This document shows positions 16,142 through 50,448 of a stretch of 64,000 nt of DNA, piece after piece. Each line of letters opens with the position of its first letter. The first letter of the stretch is position 1. The notes beneath the pieces are model-generated. The model saw nothing but the letters and a program-made list of their open reading frames with translations, made no database searches and was not told the origin of the DNA. Source of the DNA: a virus; the IMG/VR virus record IMGVR_UViG_3300034284_001183, positions 1-64,000 of that record, one strand, 5' to 3'. The position numbers were made by a program, and so were the translations under genes.

Positions 16142-16152
16142 AGATATTTATA
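16142..16152 (+). promoter_or_regulatory. Candidate phage late promoter (AGATATTTATA)
   Basis: The motif GATATTTATA lies 14 bases before the ATG of the 75-residue gene and just after a terminator hairpin. The same core precedes other structural blocks in this window. No clear -35 element is visible. Assignment as a promoter is inference. Confidence 0.4.
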
Positions 16153-26094: not shown

Positions 26095-26511
26095 ATGGCA
26101 ATTAAAAAACAAACATTTGGTATTGATTTCCCGTTTACTGAATCAAGTAGTGGAGATTATGTTGGTTTGACCAGTATACCAGAAGCTGAAGTAAAATCTA
26201 TGCTAATACATCTTCTTTTAACTAAAAGGGGTTCCAGATATTATTTACCAGATTTTGGTACAAATTTATATCAGTATATATTCGAACCATTAGATGAAAC
26301 AACCCTTGGTAAAATTGAAAATGAAATACAGGATGCTGTTGAAAAATACATACCAAACCTAAAATTAAACGCCATCAATATTACAAAAGTTGGGGATGAG
26401 GCTGAGTTTTTAAATAATACAGAAAAAGAACACCAAATTAGAATAAATTTAGATTACACAATAAGCTCCAAGACATTCTCAACGAGCGATAAATTATCAA
26501 TAACAGTATAA
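26095..26511 (+). CDS. 25: Baseplate wedge protein, T4 gp25 / GPW family
   Basis: The 138-residue protein follows the gp25 pattern: an N-terminal strand region (IDFPFTESSSGDYVGL), a helix with VKSMLIHLLLTKRGSRYYLPDFGTNL and then a helix ending in YIPNLKLNAI. The 'RG-R-P-FG' core with basic residues is diagnostic of the gp25/GPW sheath-initiating wedge proteins, which bind the first sheath ring at the inner baseplate. The length is normal for the family. It opens the second tail block and is followed after one base by the gp6-like gene, the same order as in many contractile phages. Confidence 0.88.
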   Translation: MAIKKQTFGIDFPFTESSSGDYVGLTSIPEAEVKSMLIHLLLTKRGSRYYLPDFGTNLYQYIFEPLDETTLGKIENEIQDAVEKYIPNLKLNAINITKVGDEAEFLNNTEKEHQIRINLDYTISSKTFSTSDKLSITV

Positions 26512-26512
26512 A

Positions 26513-28327
26513 ATGGCAAATAGACAAATAAATTATAGTAAAAGAGATTTTGCTTCCTTAAAAACGGAGCAAATAAACTATATTAAACAGTATTACCCTG
26601 AAGTTGTACAAAGTTTTAATGACGCATCGATATTATCGGTGTTCTTAGATTTAAATGCCGCTATTGCGGATAACTTAAACTATCAGATCGATAGAGCCTT
26701 ACAGGAGACTGTTTTAGACTATGCACAGGAAAAACAATCATTGTATAACATAGCTAAGACTTATGGCCTTAAATTGCCCACAAAATCGTCTGCTGTGGCT
26801 GTTGTTGAGTTTACAGCTCAGGTACCTGTTTTTGGTGATCAAGAAGATATTAGATACCTACCTATTATTAAATCTGGTACGCAAGTATCAAATGGTGAAA
26901 ATACATATGAGTTATTGTATGATGTTGATTTTACCTCAGCAACAAATAGTTCAGGTAATGTTGATAGAACAAAAAGACCTATTTTTATTAATAACAAAAT
27001 TGCAAGTTATTCAATAACAAAAACTGGTATTATCATAGCTGGTACAACAAAGGTATTTAATCAAACTTTTGTTAATTCAATACCTTTTTATAAAATAATT
27101 TTACCAGAAAATAATGTTTTATCGGTTGAATCAGTGATTCATAAAGCTGGTACAACATTTACAGCAACGCCAACTGACAGCGAGTTTATTAACAGCCCAA
27201 ATAGATGGTATGAGGTACCTTCATTAGCTGAAGACAGTGTTTTTGTTGAAGACACAAACTCCCCTAGAGTAAATGGTATTGCTAAAGGTATTTATCAAAA
27301 AATAGATAAAAGATATATAACCGAATTTACACCAAAAGGGTTTTGTTCAGTAACATTTGGTGCACAAACAGATTCATCTTTTGATATTTTAGATGATTTC
27401 TTAGACGGTGGTACATTTAACCTTAAAAGTTTTTTGAGAAACGGTAGTTTAGGTATGGCACCGATAGCAAATACAACATTGTTTGTTAAATATAGAATTG
27501 GTGGTGGTGTTGGTACAAACGCTGGCCCTGGTACTATAACAACAATCAATAGATTGGTTGCAAATATAAATGGCCCAGATTCAGCGATTAATTCAACAGT
27601 ACAATCTTCGGTAGTGGTAACAAATACAACCCCAGCTGTCGGTGGATCAGATGAACCGACTATTGAGGAGTTAAGAAACTATATCGGATATAACTTTGCA
27701 GCTCAAAATAGGGCTGTAACATTAAACGATTATAAAGTTTTATTACTAAGTATGCCAAGTAAGTTTGGTGCACCAGCAAAAACAAGTATAACACAAAAAC
27801 AAAACAAAATTGAAATAGGTGTTTTATCATATGACGCAAATGGTGATATATCAAACACTGTTACATCTTTATTGATGGAAAATATCGCGGCATACTTATC
27901 AAAATTTAGAATGATAAATGATTATGTTGTTGTTAAACCAGCTGAAATAGTTGATTTAGGGTTCGAAATTGGTGTATTGGTTGAAAACGGCCAACAAATA
28001 TCCGCAGTATCAAACATAACAACAATTGTTAGTAATGAATTTTTGGATGCTAAAAAACAATTGGGTAAGAGTTATAGTGTTGGTGAGATGATTAAAAAAA
28101 TGACACAGGTTGATGGTGTTTTAAATATAAATTATGTTAAAGCATTTAATAAAACAGGTGTTGGTTACTCAACCAATACCACTAGTCAATCTTTAATTGA
28201 TTCCGTAACTGGTGAGATGGATATAACAAACAATTATATTATTGTTGATGAGTATCAAATGTTAAATATTAGAAACAGTGATGTTGATATAAAAGTGATA
28301 CCAGTTATCGCAACGGGAATTAATTAA
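26513..28327 (+). CDS. 6: Baseplate wedge protein, T4 gp6 / gpJ-like
   Basis: The 604-residue protein has the gp6/gpJ layout: an N-terminal helical region (KRDFASLKTEQINYIKQYYP, then LDLNAAIADNLNYQIDRALQE), a variable beta-domain in the middle, and the conserved EPTIEELRNYIGYNFAAQNRAVTL segment at residues ~380-410 followed by a KVLLLSMPSKFG strand. gp6 forms the inner ring of the baseplate and moves during sheath contraction. It is adjacent to the gp25-like gene, its usual partner, and ends 2 bases before the next structural gene. T4 gp6 is ~660 residues, so the size fits. Confidence 0.85.
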   Translation: MANRQINYSKRDFASLKTEQINYIKQYYPEVVQSFNDASILSVFLDLNAAIADNLNYQIDRALQETVLDYAQEKQSLYNIAKTYGLKLPTKSSAVAVVEFTAQVPVFGDQEDIRYLPIIKSGTQVSNGENTYELLYDVDFTSATNSSGNVDRTKRPIFINNKIASYSITKTGIIIAGTTKVFNQTFVNSIPFYKIILPENNVLSVESVIHKAGTTFTATPTDSEFINSPNRWYEVPSLAEDSVFVEDTNSPRVNGIAKGIYQKIDKRYITEFTPKGFCSVTFGAQTDSSFDILDDFLDGGTFNLKSFLRNGSLGMAPIANTTLFVKYRIGGGVGTNAGPGTITTINRLVANINGPDSAINSTVQSSVVVTNTTPAVGGSDEPTIEELRNYIGYNFAAQNRAVTLNDYKVLLLSMPSKFGAPAKTSITQKQNKIEIGVLSYDANGDISNTVTSLLMENIAAYLSKFRMINDYVVVKPAEIVDLGFEIGVLVENGQQISAVSNITTIVSNEFLDAKKQLGKSYSVGEMIKKMTQVDGVLNINYVKAFNKTGVGYSTNTTSQSLIDSVTGEMDITNNYIIVDEYQMLNIRNSDVDIKVIPVIATGIN

Positions 28328-43409: not shown

Positions 43410-46145
43410 ATGAGCTATATAATTAAGAAAAACGATCCGTTGGTTAACGTTAAATTAACCAATAACGGTAGGAGAAATCTAGCTGAAGGGACCTTAAATT
43501 TTACATATTTTGGTCTTGGTGACGGTGAAATGGATTATTCCAACGACTCGTTCCCAAATGTTAACATTTTAAGACCATCTGATAATGTGTTAGGTTTAAG
43601 TTTACCATTAACATCTGACGGTATTAATGTTTTAAACCCAATAACAATTGTTAACGCAATACCAAATGAGATTTATACATCGGCAATAGAAAGAGGTTTT
43701 TTTAATTACGATACAACTGGCTCAACAATAACAGTTGACTCTGATTTGTGGTTAGCAGGGCCATTAACTGGTACAACAGCTGCGAGTGCAACATCACTTG
43801 ATTTAACATATAGTGGTGGAACAATAAATTCATCATACGATACAACAATAAAAGAAGGTGACTATCTTTTTGTTAAATTTAAAACAAGTGGGTACACAAC
43901 AAATTATACAGCAACTCAAGTACCATCTGATGAAATAACAGTGGAACCAGTTCAATATTTAATGTATGTTATAAAAACAATTGAAGGCTCTAGCACATAT
44001 AATTTAACGGGATTAACCAGTGGCACAACAATTACGGTTGTTGTTGATCGTGATTTACCAGCATTTGATTCTTACGAGCTTGACGCTTTTATTTATCCAG
44101 GTAAAGATACAATCAAAGATTACTACGATGAACAAAGCCCAATGGCTTACTGGCAAGGTGGGTTATTAGATTTCTCAAATAATAATACCCAATCAGCTTT
44201 AGATGTCCCAGTTTGGAACATGAACATCATTAATATTGAGGATATTATTGGTTTAGATTCTACAGTTGACAAATCAAAATATGATGTTGTGTCAAAAGAT
44301 TACTTAGGGACTGCAATAAATTTTGGTTATTATGATACAAACACCAAAATTGGCGTTATACATTATACTAATAATACGGTTTCAAATTTTTACGGGGAAG
44401 GTTTTTATCGTTCAACGTTTAAACTTAAAATACCGTATTTAATGTGGCATAAACAACAATTTGATTCTGGCGTTGCAACAACAATTGGTTATACATTTGT
44501 TGCTGACACTGAATTACAATATTTAATAGAAACAACCGAAGCTGGTTTAGGTACATCTAAATACCCTTATTATGATTTAGTTGATCAGGAAACTAACAAA
44601 ACGGTAGTCGGTAAAGTTTTTACCGATGAAAAAGTTATTGTTATTGAACACCCAGAATTATTATCAGCTTTATCATACAAAGCCAATAGAAACTGGACAT
44701 TACCAAAACCTATGTTAAACCTAACAGAACCAGGAATTTGTGGTAATACAAGTACAACAGGTATCCTACAATCAGGTGAGTATTTGTATGTAACTTATAT
44801 GTTACTTGATAGCGCTGGTATAACAGGTATGCACTGTGAAGATTACACAACGATACAAAATACGACAACAACAGCTAAAGACGTTTTATTCCAGTTTAAT
44901 AAAAAAATAGAGGACCCAAATTATACTGAATTCCCTTTTTTAAGAGATTATGATGATGAAACAGGTATTGGTTATAAAACTAACCAGATATTAATGTTAT
45001 GGCAAAAATCTACAACAGCTATAAAACCAGACCCAACAAACTGGGCTTATATCGATGTAAGTGAGTTCTTGGGTACAAATGGTTGTGTGACTGGGGTTAT
45101 GAACCTTAATGGTACTAATTTCGAGTTACATGCTGATATAATTGACTATAATTCTGATAAATTAGGGTCACATACGGTAATTGACGTTAACGCTTTTGAT
45201 GTTTTTGAGTTAGGAAGTACACCAGTTGGTGAAATAATCGTAATATATGGTGGTATTACCCAAACGCAAGCATCAGACGACACATTAAGTGACGGTACAT
45301 ATTATCCATACCCAACAACATACGCTGTTGGACCTAATAATAGAAGAGTTATTGTTTTTGGGCAAGGTTATGGGGCTGACCCAGATCTTTTACAAATTTA
45401 CTATTTAACTGGTACAAGTATTACTTCTAGAACAATTAAACAAGTTATAACGGTACCATCATTGGCTACAATCAACGCAAATACAAACGCTAACGCAATT
45501 TATAAATCAGCGATAGCACCTAATAGAGTATCACTTAAATTGGACAAACAACCAAATAATTCAACAGTATGGTTATTCTATAAAGGTATGTTGTTAAATT
45601 CAACAACATATGGTGTATTTGTTACAAATGAAACAATTGATGACAGACGTGTTGAATTAAATTTCCCATCATTAACAGAAGGTAGTGAAATAACAATGTT
45701 CTATTTAGATAATTCAGGTGCTGGACAAACGGTATCAACAAATGTTTTAACAAAAGACACTATTTCAGCGCTTAGAGTAAATATAGATCAGTTTATGCTT
45801 GACAATAGTGACACCGATATTTATAATTTAAGTGATTATATTACCATACCAGGTATTTCGTCAACGGATTTTACTTTTGGTGATGAGGTATTTTTCTTTG
45901 GTAATGTAGAGACAGATATTAAAGCAACAATATATAAAACACAATTAACTTGTAACGTGTTACCTAATCAATACATATCAACAGATAACCCAACATTTAA
46001 TTCTGATCAGGATAAAGTTGCGTTTACTCAAATAGGTATTTTTGATACTAATGGTGTATTAGTGGCAATTGGTAAATTTTCAGAGCCAATAACAAGAAAA
46101 TATAATTCTGATATGGTAGTAATACAAGCCACAATCGATTTCTAA
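43410..46145 (+). CDS. Tail-fibre-type protein with N-terminal LT-x-GR motif
   Basis: The 911-residue protein begins with a short domain: VKLTNNGRRNLAEG, FTYFGLGDGEMDY. A related domain opens the proteins at 46145 and 48319, so it may be a shared attachment module. The body is beta- and threonine-rich with SGTT-type repeats. A segment with GVIHYTNN and IVIEHPELLSAL and the end QIGIFDTNGVLVAIGKFSEP resemble the corresponding parts of the 625-residue protein at 48571, which I take as a diverged paralogue. The product is likely a fibre or adhesin subunit. Its stop overlaps the next start by one base. Confidence 0.6.
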   Translation: MSYIIKKNDPLVNVKLTNNGRRNLAEGTLNFTYFGLGDGEMDYSNDSFPNVNILRPSDNVLGLSLPLTSDGINVLNPITIVNAIPNEIYTSAIERGFFNYDTTGSTITVDSDLWLAGPLTGTTAASATSLDLTYSGGTINSSYDTTIKEGDYLFVKFKTSGYTTNYTATQVPSDEITVEPVQYLMYVIKTIEGSSTYNLTGLTSGTTITVVVDRDLPAFDSYELDAFIYPGKDTIKDYYDEQSPMAYWQGGLLDFSNNNTQSALDVPVWNMNIINIEDIIGLDSTVDKSKYDVVSKDYLGTAINFGYYDTNTKIGVIHYTNNTVSNFYGEGFYRSTFKLKIPYLMWHKQQFDSGVATTIGYTFVADTELQYLIETTEAGLGTSKYPYYDLVDQETNKTVVGKVFTDEKVIVIEHPELLSALSYKANRNWTLPKPMLNLTEPGICGNTSTTGILQSGEYLYVTYMLLDSAGITGMHCEDYTTIQNTTTTAKDVLFQFNKKIEDPNYTEFPFLRDYDDETGIGYKTNQILMLWQKSTTAIKPDPTNWAYIDVSEFLGTNGCVTGVMNLNGTNFELHADIIDYNSDKLGSHTVIDVNAFDVFELGSTPVGEIIVIYGGITQTQASDDTLSDGTYYPYPTTYAVGPNNRRVIVFGQGYGADPDLLQIYYLTGTSITSRTIKQVITVPSLATINANTNANAIYKSAIAPNRVSLKLDKQPNNSTVWLFYKGMLLNSTTYGVFVTNETIDDRRVELNFPSLTEGSEITMFYLDNSGAGQTVSTNVLTKDTISALRVNIDQFMLDNSDTDIYNLSDYITIPGISSTDFTFGDEVFFFGNVETDIKATIYKTQLTCNVLPNQYISTDNPTFNSDQDKVAFTQIGIFDTNGVLVAIGKFSEPITRKYNSDMVVIQATIDF

Positions 46146-46525
46146 TGGGATTCATAAAAAGAAATAAATATACTTTTGAAATATACCTTACAGACAAGGG
46201 TAGAGAAACATTCATAAACAACGGTTTTCAGAATGAGGTTAAATATTTTTCATTAATAGATAACTCAAACTACAACCAAATGAGTGGTATGGATCCTCAT
46301 GTTTTAACAGGTCAGACAATACCAACAATAAAATTTTATGATACGACAGAAGTTAATAACACGAGTGAGGTCTATGTACAGGACTCTAAAAGAGGCTCTA
46401 TTGATAACAACATACATTTTACTCATGGTTTTTTGGGTGTTAACCAAAGAGCTGAAAATAATTATATCGCATACGATCCAGACCTTTCAACGGAAACGAT
46501 TAAAATAATGACATATAAAGACTAA
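46145..46525 (+). CDS. Small fibre-associated protein with LT-x-GR motif
   Basis: The 126-residue product is mostly the same kind of domain that begins the 911-residue protein: FEIYLTDKGRETFINNGF and then KYFSLIDNSNYNQM. It has no long fibre region. It is bounded by one-base TAATG overlaps on both sides, so its translation is probably coupled to the proteins around it. I infer an adaptor or cap that shares a fold with the fibre N-termini. Function is unproven. Confidence 0.6.
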   Translation: MGFIKRNKYTFEIYLTDKGRETFINNGFQNEVKYFSLIDNSNYNQMSGMDPHVLTGQTIPTIKFYDTTEVNNTSEVYVQDSKRGSIDNNIHFTHGFLGVNQRAENNYIAYDPDLSTETIKIMTYKD

Positions 46526-47577
46526 TGGCTAGACAATACAACCTTAAAAATTTAAACGGTATACATCTTAAAGCACCTTATGATTACACGTCATATAGTA
46601 CTAATGGGGTTGTTAACGCCTTGATAGAAGATTACGATTTTCACCCCTATAGATCAAATGATTTATCTGATTTTGAATTTATAAATGGTTCTTATAATTT
46701 GGTTGATAAAACTTCCATATATGATAATATGCCAATGGGTAATGGTTTTATTGGTGACAATTCAAAAGCAACAAGAAACATTGCTGTTGATTATACACAA
46801 TTTAAGAAAAACAACATGTTAGTTAAGGGTGAGGTTTATTATACAAGTTTTGATATGTACTTTAACTTTAATGGTGATGGCCAGAATTATGAGGTTAGTA
46901 CAACAGGTTATACAATTAATGTTGACATCTACGCTATTTTTGGTAATAATAAGAAAAAACTTAGATTATCAGATTTAAAAGTTTATGATTATGCTTCCGC
47001 TACTTACAGTGGGTCAACATCTAACCCAGTTGTTGCTGGTTATGTTGATATCAGCGCATCTTTTTTTAACAATTGGATTAATATAAGCGGTACTGGTACG
47101 ACAACTGGCGACACGATTAACGTGTCTTATCTACCTCACCCACATGTATATGTGATTGAAAATACCAGTGCATCAAATATTACTTTTCAATGGATAGAGG
47201 GTGATGTTGGTCAACCTTTTTATGGTACATCAGTCTTTTCTACTGTTTCCCCTACTGGTAATCTTTACATAACATCATTTACCCTACCAGTAGTTACCCC
47301 TTTTGATGTTGGTCCAGAACCAGAATATGATATACAAGATCGAGGTCTTGCAGAAGAACCAAACATTAGCCCATTCAACGTTATGAGCGGATATATGTTC
47401 AAGGTTACGGCTGAATTGGATACGAGTACAGAAGAATTATTTAATTCAAACATATGTACTGGTAATAAAGATTTTAAAATAATGGTTGATTATAACGGAA
47501 GGATATCACAAACAACGGTTGGTTATTTGTATGACGATATCGAAGTTGATAATAACCCACCACCTTTACCAGCTTAA
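46525..47577 (+). CDS. Fibre/tail structural protein, unknown
   Basis: The 350-residue protein is beta-rich with aromatic and glycine/threonine stretches (VYYTSFDMYFNFNGDGQNYE, INISGTGTTTGDTINVSYLP). It ends in a proline-rich tail (NNPPPLPA). There is no membrane segment and only one cysteine. It follows the LT-x-GR small protein with a one-base overlap and precedes another structural gene by 11 bases. A fibre or fibre-tip role is plausible from the block it lies in. Confidence 0.5.
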   Translation: MARQYNLKNLNGIHLKAPYDYTSYSTNGVVNALIEDYDFHPYRSNDLSDFEFINGSYNLVDKTSIYDNMPMGNGFIGDNSKATRNIAVDYTQFKKNNMLVKGEVYYTSFDMYFNFNGDGQNYEVSTTGYTINVDIYAIFGNNKKKLRLSDLKVYDYASATYSGSTSNPVVAGYVDISASFFNNWINISGTGTTTGDTINVSYLPHPHVYVIENTSASNITFQWIEGDVGQPFYGTSVFSTVSPTGNLYITSFTLPVVTPFDVGPEPEYDIQDRGLAEEPNISPFNVMSGYMFKVTAELDTSTEELFNSNICTGNKDFKIMVDYNGRISQTTVGYLYDDIEVDNNPPPLPA

Positions 47578-48224: not shown

Positions 48225-48246
48225 AATAAAAAAAAAACAAAAGAGT

Positions 48247-48257
48247 CGTATATTTAT
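48247..48257 (+). promoter_or_regulatory. Candidate late promoter motif (CGTATATTTAT)
   Basis: CGTATATTTAT is a one-base-longer variant of the CGATATTTAT motif. It lies 62 bases before the ATG at 48319. A second AT-rich stretch with TATTTAAA occurs about 15-20 bases before that ATG, so the exact element is uncertain. Confidence 0.3.
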
Positions 48258-48318
48258 TATATAGGAATAATAACTTGATTTGTAGAATAAAATTAATATA
48301 TTTAAATAAACTAAAAAC

Positions 48319-48564
48319 ATGGGGTTCGTACCACAAAGCGGAAGCACCGAAGAAATTAAAGTTTACCTAACAGAGTTGGGTAGAAGAAAACTTTTGGAAC
48401 AAGGTTTTAAACCAGTTACTTTTTCTATTTCAGATGAAGATGGTAATTACAATGCGTTATCAACTGTCGATCAAATAGTTACAGATATTACTGGTGACTA
48501 TAATGATAATGTTTACGCAATATCAAAAAACATAACAATAAAAGGTCAAATATTAAGAAAATAA
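48319..48564 (+). CDS. Small LT-x-GR domain protein, possible detached fibre N-terminus
   Basis: The 81-residue product consists almost only of the domain that opens the 911-residue fibre protein: IKVYLTELGRRKLLEQGF, then VTFSISDEDGNYNAL. Its TAA stop (48562-48564) is followed six bases later by the ATG of the 625-residue protein in the same reading frame. The pair together has the layout of the 43410 protein, so this may be a split fibre gene or a site of occasional readthrough. It could equally be a genuine separate adaptor. Confidence 0.6.
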   Translation: MGFVPQSGSTEEIKVYLTELGRRKLLEQGFKPVTFSISDEDGNYNALSTVDQIVTDITGDYNDNVYAISKNITIKGQILRK

Positions 48565-48570
48565 CATAAA

Positions 48571-50448
48571 ATGAGTGCGATATTAAAAGTTAGAATTCCA
48601 TATTATAGTAGAACAATTTCTAGTGGTACAGACGGTATTGCTAGTTTCTATTTATTAGAACAACCACCACATCTAACAATTTTAAACCAAAATGTTGTTA
48701 TTACACATACAGAGGTTTCAAGTAGTTCTGGTCTATACAATAAATTAAACTCTTTAGGTGTAAACACGGTTTTAGGTAAAGCTCAAGGACCACCATTAGA
48801 TCTAAGCAATAACCCAACAGCTGTTGCGGCAAATGGGGGTTATAAATACATACTTTCAGTTGCTTATAATGATAAAGAGTTTTCACAACCAAATAACGCT
48901 GGATCTTGTCGTGGTTACATTGAATACGATGTTAACCCAACAAATTATAATGTGCTAAAACCAATTGAGAACGCGATTTTAGTTAATGAAAGTGTACCTT
49001 TTGATTTATCAAACGGTTTTCAAGAATTAAACCACACATTTAGTGGTACAACATTAAATAGCACCGATATTTTACCAGGTTTCTTTGTTGGTAGACAGGA
49101 TAATAATACTATTTTTGCTAACTTATTAAAGTCACTTAATTTACCCGTTACGGATGAAGAATACAAAAAATATTCAAGATCCGCTTATGGTGTTTTATCT
49201 AATGCGGGTACTAATGATACTGTTGCAGCTGTTATTGGTGGTGTTAATAAAAAATGGACCGCAATTACAGATTCATATACTGGTACAACTGACGCATTGT
49301 TGGTTCACCCAGCAACTGGTTATACTGGCGAATACTATGATACTGTTATGCAAACAATTGGTTGCAATGAGTTTGAAACAAACAAACCTTGGAATTTACC
49401 AGTTCCAAATGATTTATACATGATATTTGAAATACCAAATAACAAATACGGTGAAATTATTGATGGTAAGACAATTAAATTAGAATTACCTTATTATACT
49501 GGTGCTTTATCATCCACAGCAGACCCAAAACGTTTGGGTATTATGACTGGTTGGACAGGACCAAGTACTATCGAGTTATACGGTACCTACAATACAGCTG
49601 GTATAAACAATAATTTAGATAAGAAATTATCTGAACCAGATATTAGTGTTAACACACTTGGTGTTAGACCTGATTTAGCCACAGTAAGTTCAACAACATA
49701 TGAGAGTAATGTTGTATTGTTATTTACGGATGCAGTACAAACACCTTCTGTTAATTTTAGTAACTGGGGTGATGCTTATAGTGAAGTTATAAACGGAACT
49801 AGAGTATTTTCACCAACAGCCCAAGAAAAACCAACATACAACTATAAAGATGATGTTTGTGTTGGAGTAGCTTATTTGGACAAAGGTTTTATAGTTATTA
49901 CACACCCATTACTTGTTGATTCATATTTCCACAATATTTTTGATGGCCGTATCTATACAAGTGGTACTTTAACTAGTATGGTTAAAAACTATGACGCAAC
50001 CGTTGACTCATCAAACACACCTGTAATTGCTGAATGGAGAGGCGATGTTAGAACCACAGACTCTAACGATACATATGAATTGATTGTCACTAAAGATGTT
50101 ACTGACATCCTATGGGATAGCACACAATTTATCTATACAGGTACAACAGATTATACATTAACATATAACAGTTACAACACTGAAAAATCTTTAAATATTG
50201 TTTGTTTGGCATCTTCAGATGAATTTTTTAAATCAACAAACGATACCGCAAAAGATATGATGGGCGTTGCCCAAACGGAAGATGTAGCATCGTTTAAATC
50301 AACAAATGGTGATCTATTCCCTGTTATTATTACACAATTGGGTATCCATGATGCTGATGGTAATTTATTGGCGATTTGCAAACCAACACAACCAATTAAA
50401 AAATATTGGTATGACGTTGTGTCGTTCAATATCAAAATAAGATTATAA
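48571..50448 (+). CDS. Tail-fibre-type protein, related to the 911-residue fibre
   Basis: The 625-residue protein is beta- and threonine-rich (SGTTLNSTD, DSYTGTTDAL). A VGVAYLDKGFIVITHPLLV segment and the C-terminal TQLGIHDADGNLLAICKPTQ match the same places in the 43410 protein (IVIEHPELL; QIGIFDTNGVLVAIGKF). It lacks the N-terminal LT-x-GR domain, which is instead encoded in frame just upstream at 48319. It ends the second tail block. A fibre or receptor-binding role is inferred. Confidence 0.6.
   Translation: MSAILKVRIPYYSRTISSGTDGIASFYLLEQPPHLTILNQNVVITHTEVSSSSGLYNKLNSLGVNTVLGKAQGPPLDLSNNPTAVAANGGYKYILSVAYNDKEFSQPNNAGSCRGYIEYDVNPTNYNVLKPIENAILVNESVPFDLSNGFQELNHTFSGTTLNSTDILPGFFVGRQDNNTIFANLLKSLNLPVTDEEYKKYSRSAYGVLSNAGTNDTVAAVIGGVNKKWTAITDSYTGTTDALLVHPATGYTGEYYDTVMQTIGCNEFETNKPWNLPVPNDLYMIFEIPNNKYGEIIDGKTIKLELPYYTGALSSTADPKRLGIMTGWTGPSTIELYGTYNTAGINNNLDKKLSEPDISVNTLGVRPDLATVSSTTYESNVVLLFTDAVQTPSVNFSNWGDAYSEVINGTRVFSPTAQEKPTYNYKDDVCVGVAYLDKGFIVITHPLLVDSYFHNIFDGRIYTSGTLTSMVKNYDATVDSSNTPVIAEWRGDVRTTDSNDTYELIVTKDVTDILWDSTQFIYTGTTDYTLTYNSYNTEKSLNIVCLASSDEFFKSTNDTAKDMMGVAQTEDVASFKSTNGDLFPVIITQLGIHDADGNLLAICKPTQPIKKYWYDVVSFNIKIRL

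Follow-up and report, generated by a model that had tools for sequence, protein, structure and literature searches.

Gene arrangement at the locus

The analyzed stretch of DNA, called the window in the following, comprises 64,000 nt of a virus record of 72,895 bases. On its forward strand, an 81-codon and a 625-codon open reading frame follow each other in a common reading frame, with CAT AAA as the sole codons after the TAA of the first gene and before ATG 48571. The first-pass annotation had described precisely this layout (81 codons, TAA, two codons and 625 codons in one frame), and the ORF coordinates bear it out. The features of the locus are as follows; one-chain proteins are homologs in which both parts lie in a single ORF.

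43410..46145, + strand: gene of a 911-aa protein with an N-terminal LT-x-GR domain of another subtype (profile comparison)
46145..46525, + strand: gene of a 126-aa LT-x-GR domain protein, with an LT domain akin to the one in the 81-aa protein (39% over 56 aa)
48225..48318, + strand: 94-nt intergenic leader, conserved in alignments of close relatives, with the motif ATATTTAT at 48250
48319..48564, + strand: gene of the 81-aa stand-alone LT-x-GR domain protein (81-codon ORF, stop TAA at 48562-48564), conserved in all close relatives
48565..48570, + strand: spacer CATAAA, 6 nt, varying in length (1–26 nt) and frame among relatives
48571..50448, + strand: gene of the 625-aa structural-type protein, starting from a separate ATG at 48571 (ORF, family alignments, start-context score)
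48571..48930, + strand: N-terminal domain of the 625-aa protein, approx. residues 1–120 (profile coordinates of relatives, AlphaFold2 pLDDT)
48961..50448, + strand: core of the 625-aa protein from approx. residue 131, with its homolog in the C-terminal part of one-chain proteins

A gap of 6 nt between genes is normal in this gene-dense window. Upstream of the 81/625 cluster, at 26095-28327, genes resembling the T4-like baseplate wedge genes gp25 and gp6 (PHROGs 261, 43 and 6) were found. Given these genes, the pair may reasonably be placed in a T4-like tail cluster. The T4 baseplate families gave no match for either the 81-aa or the 625-aa protein.

Properties of the two proteins

In comparisons with five relatives, the 81-aa gene has a dN of 0.011–0.077 versus a dS of 0.148–0.863, corresponding to dN/dS values of approx. 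0.04–0.15. Since dN is far below dS in all five, we conclude that the gene is real and under purifying selection. The predicted model of the protein is poor (pLDDT 46) and too low in confidence for a structure search. In L042 and L047, C-terminal tails have been added to the 81-type protein alone, in line with a gene separate from that of the 625-type protein.

The 625-type protein is conserved from its methionine onward (MSAILKVR in close relatives), whereas the spacer in front of it is without such conservation. According to profile coordinates, residues 1 to approx. 120 occur in the clade with two genes and are absent from the one-chain relatives. AlphaFold2 assigns a pLDDT of approx. 80–90 to most of this N-terminal domain and 67 to the whole model. 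A Foldseek search of the PDB with the model gave no match below an E-value of 0.001, and in comparisons with viral models mainly unnamed or uncharacterized proteins with low TM-scores were obtained. Matches of the model in VIA-align (Z up to 8.0) were discarded, as they covered residues 1–122 only, hit mostly unrelated proteins and were at background level. PHROGs and Pfam contain no convincing family match for the 81-aa protein, the 625-aa protein or the one-chain relatives compared. Further, the 625 family and its one-chain relatives were found in no record among 50,697 phage records. Profiles are now available for the small domain and for the core family, both of which are shared by structural-type proteins of this phage group without a match in the records.

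The 911-aa protein is a different gene of the cluster

The 911-aa protein encoded upstream had been taken as a chain that contains both parts of the 81/625 pair. It does carry an N-terminal LT-x-GR domain and a related C-terminal motif. However, profile comparison with the 625 family revealed only approx. 44–45 common residues at the C-terminus (43% identity), corresponding to the last approx. 45 residues of the 625-aa protein, and with the 81 family approx. 34 residues around the LT-x-GR motif are common. At least two subtypes of LT domain are distinguished by profile score, one located at the N-terminus of 911-type proteins and the other in 81-type and one-chain proteins. Phages that have the one-chain form usually carry a 911-type gene as well, as a separate gene just upstream of the one-chain gene. 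Because the subtype differs, the overlap is short and one-chain phages have both genes, the 911-aa protein is, on these comparisons, a different gene of the cluster. It was rejected both as an unsplit version of the pair and as the equivalent of the one-chain form, and the claim that both parts are united in it falls.

One-chain relatives and the history of the two modules

The same 12 contigs were obtained whether the 625 family or the 81 family was used for scanning, and wider scans raised the number of distinct pairs on the tree to 17, including the window. All 17 have two separate genes. A scan with a deeper alignment yielded 78 loci. Among these, a distant uncultured group (mostly 24–34% identity) encodes an LT-x-GR domain followed by the 625-type core in a single ORF of approx. 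396–432 aa. The LT domain obtained a better score from the 81-type profile than from the 911-type one in 24 of 24 one-chain proteins. A third group has a core that begins on its own, and the preceding gene often encodes a longer LT protein of 261–539 aa. The core belongs to a little-known protein family with a history of one-chain and two-gene forms, of which the former occur in distant relatives and the latter in the clade of the window.

An unrooted tree of the core was built from 303 columns. In this tree, the window and the rest of its two-gene clade make up one side of a branch with a support of 100/100, and the one-chain forms comprise a clade of 23 rows and, independently, L114. The latter is a single chain with LT domain and core approx. 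250 residues apart; it is placed among separate-gene rows (99/93), and over its first approx. 139 residues it matches the LT genes that stand apart in those rows. At least two changes are needed to explain the one-chain forms on the tree. This also holds with L132 set aside as a one-chain case that lost its start. From the placement of L114 and the one-chain clade it follows that the modules were joined or parted more than once. L132 had been considered as a case without an LT domain, which was dropped since the domain is present in frame and the start was lost by deletion or misassembly. At L132:3490-3720, a one-chain LT and core gene is missing its first residues and the start codon, and lies beside a shortened 911-type gene.

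To address the direction of the change, the tree was rooted on the 911 family, whose C-terminal domain served as outgroup. Under this root, which relies on 106 columns, has a long outgroup branch and is weakly supported (95/61 and 89/73), separate-gene rows branch first and all one-chain rows except L114 form a nested clade (99/92). Fusion is more parsimonious in this topology, and we weakly favor separate genes as the ancestral state with fusion in other lineages. The first-pass annotation had instead suggested fission of one fiber gene, which in its present form would mean that a one-chain ancestor broke in the lineage of the window and its core then gained a new N-terminal domain. We regard this history as less favored than fusion elsewhere, and on the whole as rather unlikely. 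One-chain forms are indeed widespread in distant relatives, they carry an LT domain that resembles the 81 type more closely than the 911 type, and the unrooted tree requires no more than a single change to set the one-chain clade apart from all other rows, except for L114. Against this stands the outgroup root. Further, as the whole clade shares the layout and the 625-aa protein has the additional N-terminal domain, the window does not represent a recent fission. Since one-chain forms are devoid of this domain, the stop at 48562 is not the place where an ancestral chain broke, i.e., the scar of such an event. What remains of the suggestion is the existence of one-chain forms in distant relatives.

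Comparable rearrangements were found in other genes of the cluster. The 126-aa protein and a 350-aa protein of the window, encoded in different frames at 46145-47577, correspond to successive parts of single proteins of 403 aa (L092:1535-2746) and 392 aa (L096:1265-2443) in members of the same clade. In a distant group comprising L056, L057, L059, L060, L065 and L067, the 911-type gene is divided into two genes, with parts covering approx. residues 1–432 and 448–911 and lying 8 to 3,141 nt apart. As an example of a split structural gene, it is clearer than the 81/625 pair. Taking the 126/350 pair, L114 and the split 911-type genes together, the cluster is one in which modules are commonly joined and parted.

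Reading frame, spacer and stop codon across close relatives

The spacer between the two genes differs among the 17 pairs. It measures 6 nt in the window, L075, L077, L080 and L083; 4 nt in L079 and L091; 5 nt in L085 and L087; 7 nt in L081; 1 nt in L088, L094 and L096; 11 nt in L092; 23 nt in L089 and L097; and 26 nt in L099. Consequently, the pair is in frame in five cases, including the window, and the second gene is out of frame in the other 12. The frame shifts even between close sisters, as L081 with 7 nt stands beside L080 and L083 with 6 nt in the closest subclade. For non-overlapping neighbors, one in three is expected to share a frame a priori. Since 5/17 is approximately this chance level, the frame common to the 81- and 625-codon genes is, judged by this distribution, accidental.

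The first-pass annotation had also offered a regulated readthrough of the stop, giving a free domain and a long form, and had named one two-gene layout in all relatives as the finding that would speak against it. We checked the stop in the relatives, and this layout is what we found; a fused ORF was not detected in the two-gene clade. Regulated or leaky readthrough of TAA 48562 would produce some fusion protein of approx. 709 residues besides the free domain, and the frame is indeed open through the stop in the five in-frame pairs. In the 12 others, however, readthrough cannot join the two proteins, and in the out-of-frame pairs listed the next stop is reached 0–16 codons past the one read through. 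The first gene ends with TAA in all pairs listed, and no tRNA as a suppressor candidate was found in the window or in the loci of four relatives. In addition, ATG 48571 itself is a strong start for the second gene and is kept in relatives: with leave-one-out scoring on the other genes of the window, its context reaches 4.87 bits compared to a median of 0.98 for genes, and just 0.1% of 1,055 internal ATGs score as well. Thus, neither a missing initiation site downstream nor a conserved open frame, both marks of programmed readthrough, was observed. On these sequence comparisons we reject readthrough as a conserved mechanism and consider its operation at TAA 48562 very improbable; low-level readthrough may occur in the five in-frame relatives. 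An origin of the stop in faulty sequencing or assembly, as had been considered as well, is practically excluded by a near-identical second public contig with the same stop (identical over 13,875 bases; one mismatch in 22,733 bases); the same TAA is present in relatives at 69–85% protein identity, and we found no support for an error.

A known case of a short tail protein beside a longer form is that of the P2 tail genes E and E+E′, which depends on a translational −1 frameshift (PMC3091744). In P2, both forms have a common start. In contrast, the second gene studied here has its own start, the spacer varies freely and no frame relation is conserved.

Two separate genes and a possible docking partnership

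Altogether, we interpret the locus as two genes of an uncultured, T4-like phage that point in the same direction, are translated separately and meet at an ordinary gene boundary, and we assign a probability of approximately 0.9 to this two-gene reading. The first gene would yield a free LT-x-GR domain of 81 aa, and the second, initiated at ATG 48571 six bases past the first stop, a 625-aa protein of tail or baseplate type. Because the cluster lies downstream of the gp25- and gp6-like baseplate genes, we infer that both products are located in the virion, in the tail or the baseplate.

An interaction is common for modules that form one protein in some genomes and two in others. Since distant relatives have both parts in one chain, a contact between the 81-aa and the 625-aa products in the particle is suggested. 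The 911-, 126- and 81-aa proteins all have an N-terminal LT-x-GR domain, as do neighboring proteins in relatives. Because the domain recurs in this position in several neighboring proteins, it is most simply understood as a domain for docking on the particle, and the 81-aa protein would then be the docking domain supplied as its own subunit. We give roughly even odds to the 81-aa protein being the docking partner of the 625-aa protein. The tempting reading of a readthrough switch gives way to a probable binding of two proteins encoded side by side. More tentatively, the LT-x-GR domain of this uncultured T4-like group might be a common plug that joins several different baseplate or fiber proteins to the particle and has repeatedly switched between a free subunit and the N-terminus of its partner.

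The literature on split or fused tail-fiber genes provided one useful analog, the anchors and adapters of receptor-binding proteins, such as gp37, which is a separate adapter in phage K1-5, and the anchors located N-terminally in proteins of T7, K1F and the Klebsiella phages KP32 and KP34 (PMC6872550). There, too, the conserved module for attachment to the virion is either the N-terminus of a fiber or spike or a protein of its own, and the organization varies among related phages. In contrast, the LT domain is short (approx. 50–80 aa) and occurs in several neighboring genes, and its attachment role is one that we infer; the likeness does not imply a claim of sequence relation.

Further observations on LT proteins and intergenic regions

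A 485-aa LT protein is encoded at L143:2324-3781, and its residues 72–186 match a PHROG annotated as baseplate hub subunit and tail lysozyme (E-value of 2e-9).

In the approx. 1,040 intergenic bases of the window, six of the nine + strand copies of the 8-mer ATATTTAT were found, 12–69 nt upstream of the next gene (at 16144, 22558, 26075, 43389, 48250 and 57803). The 8-mers ATAAATAT and TATAAATA, which have the same A/T make-up, are absent from these intergenic bases. ATATTTAT is, therefore, proposed as a candidate promoter motif, and the 94-nt leader at 48225..48318 likely holds the promoter of the 81/625 pair.
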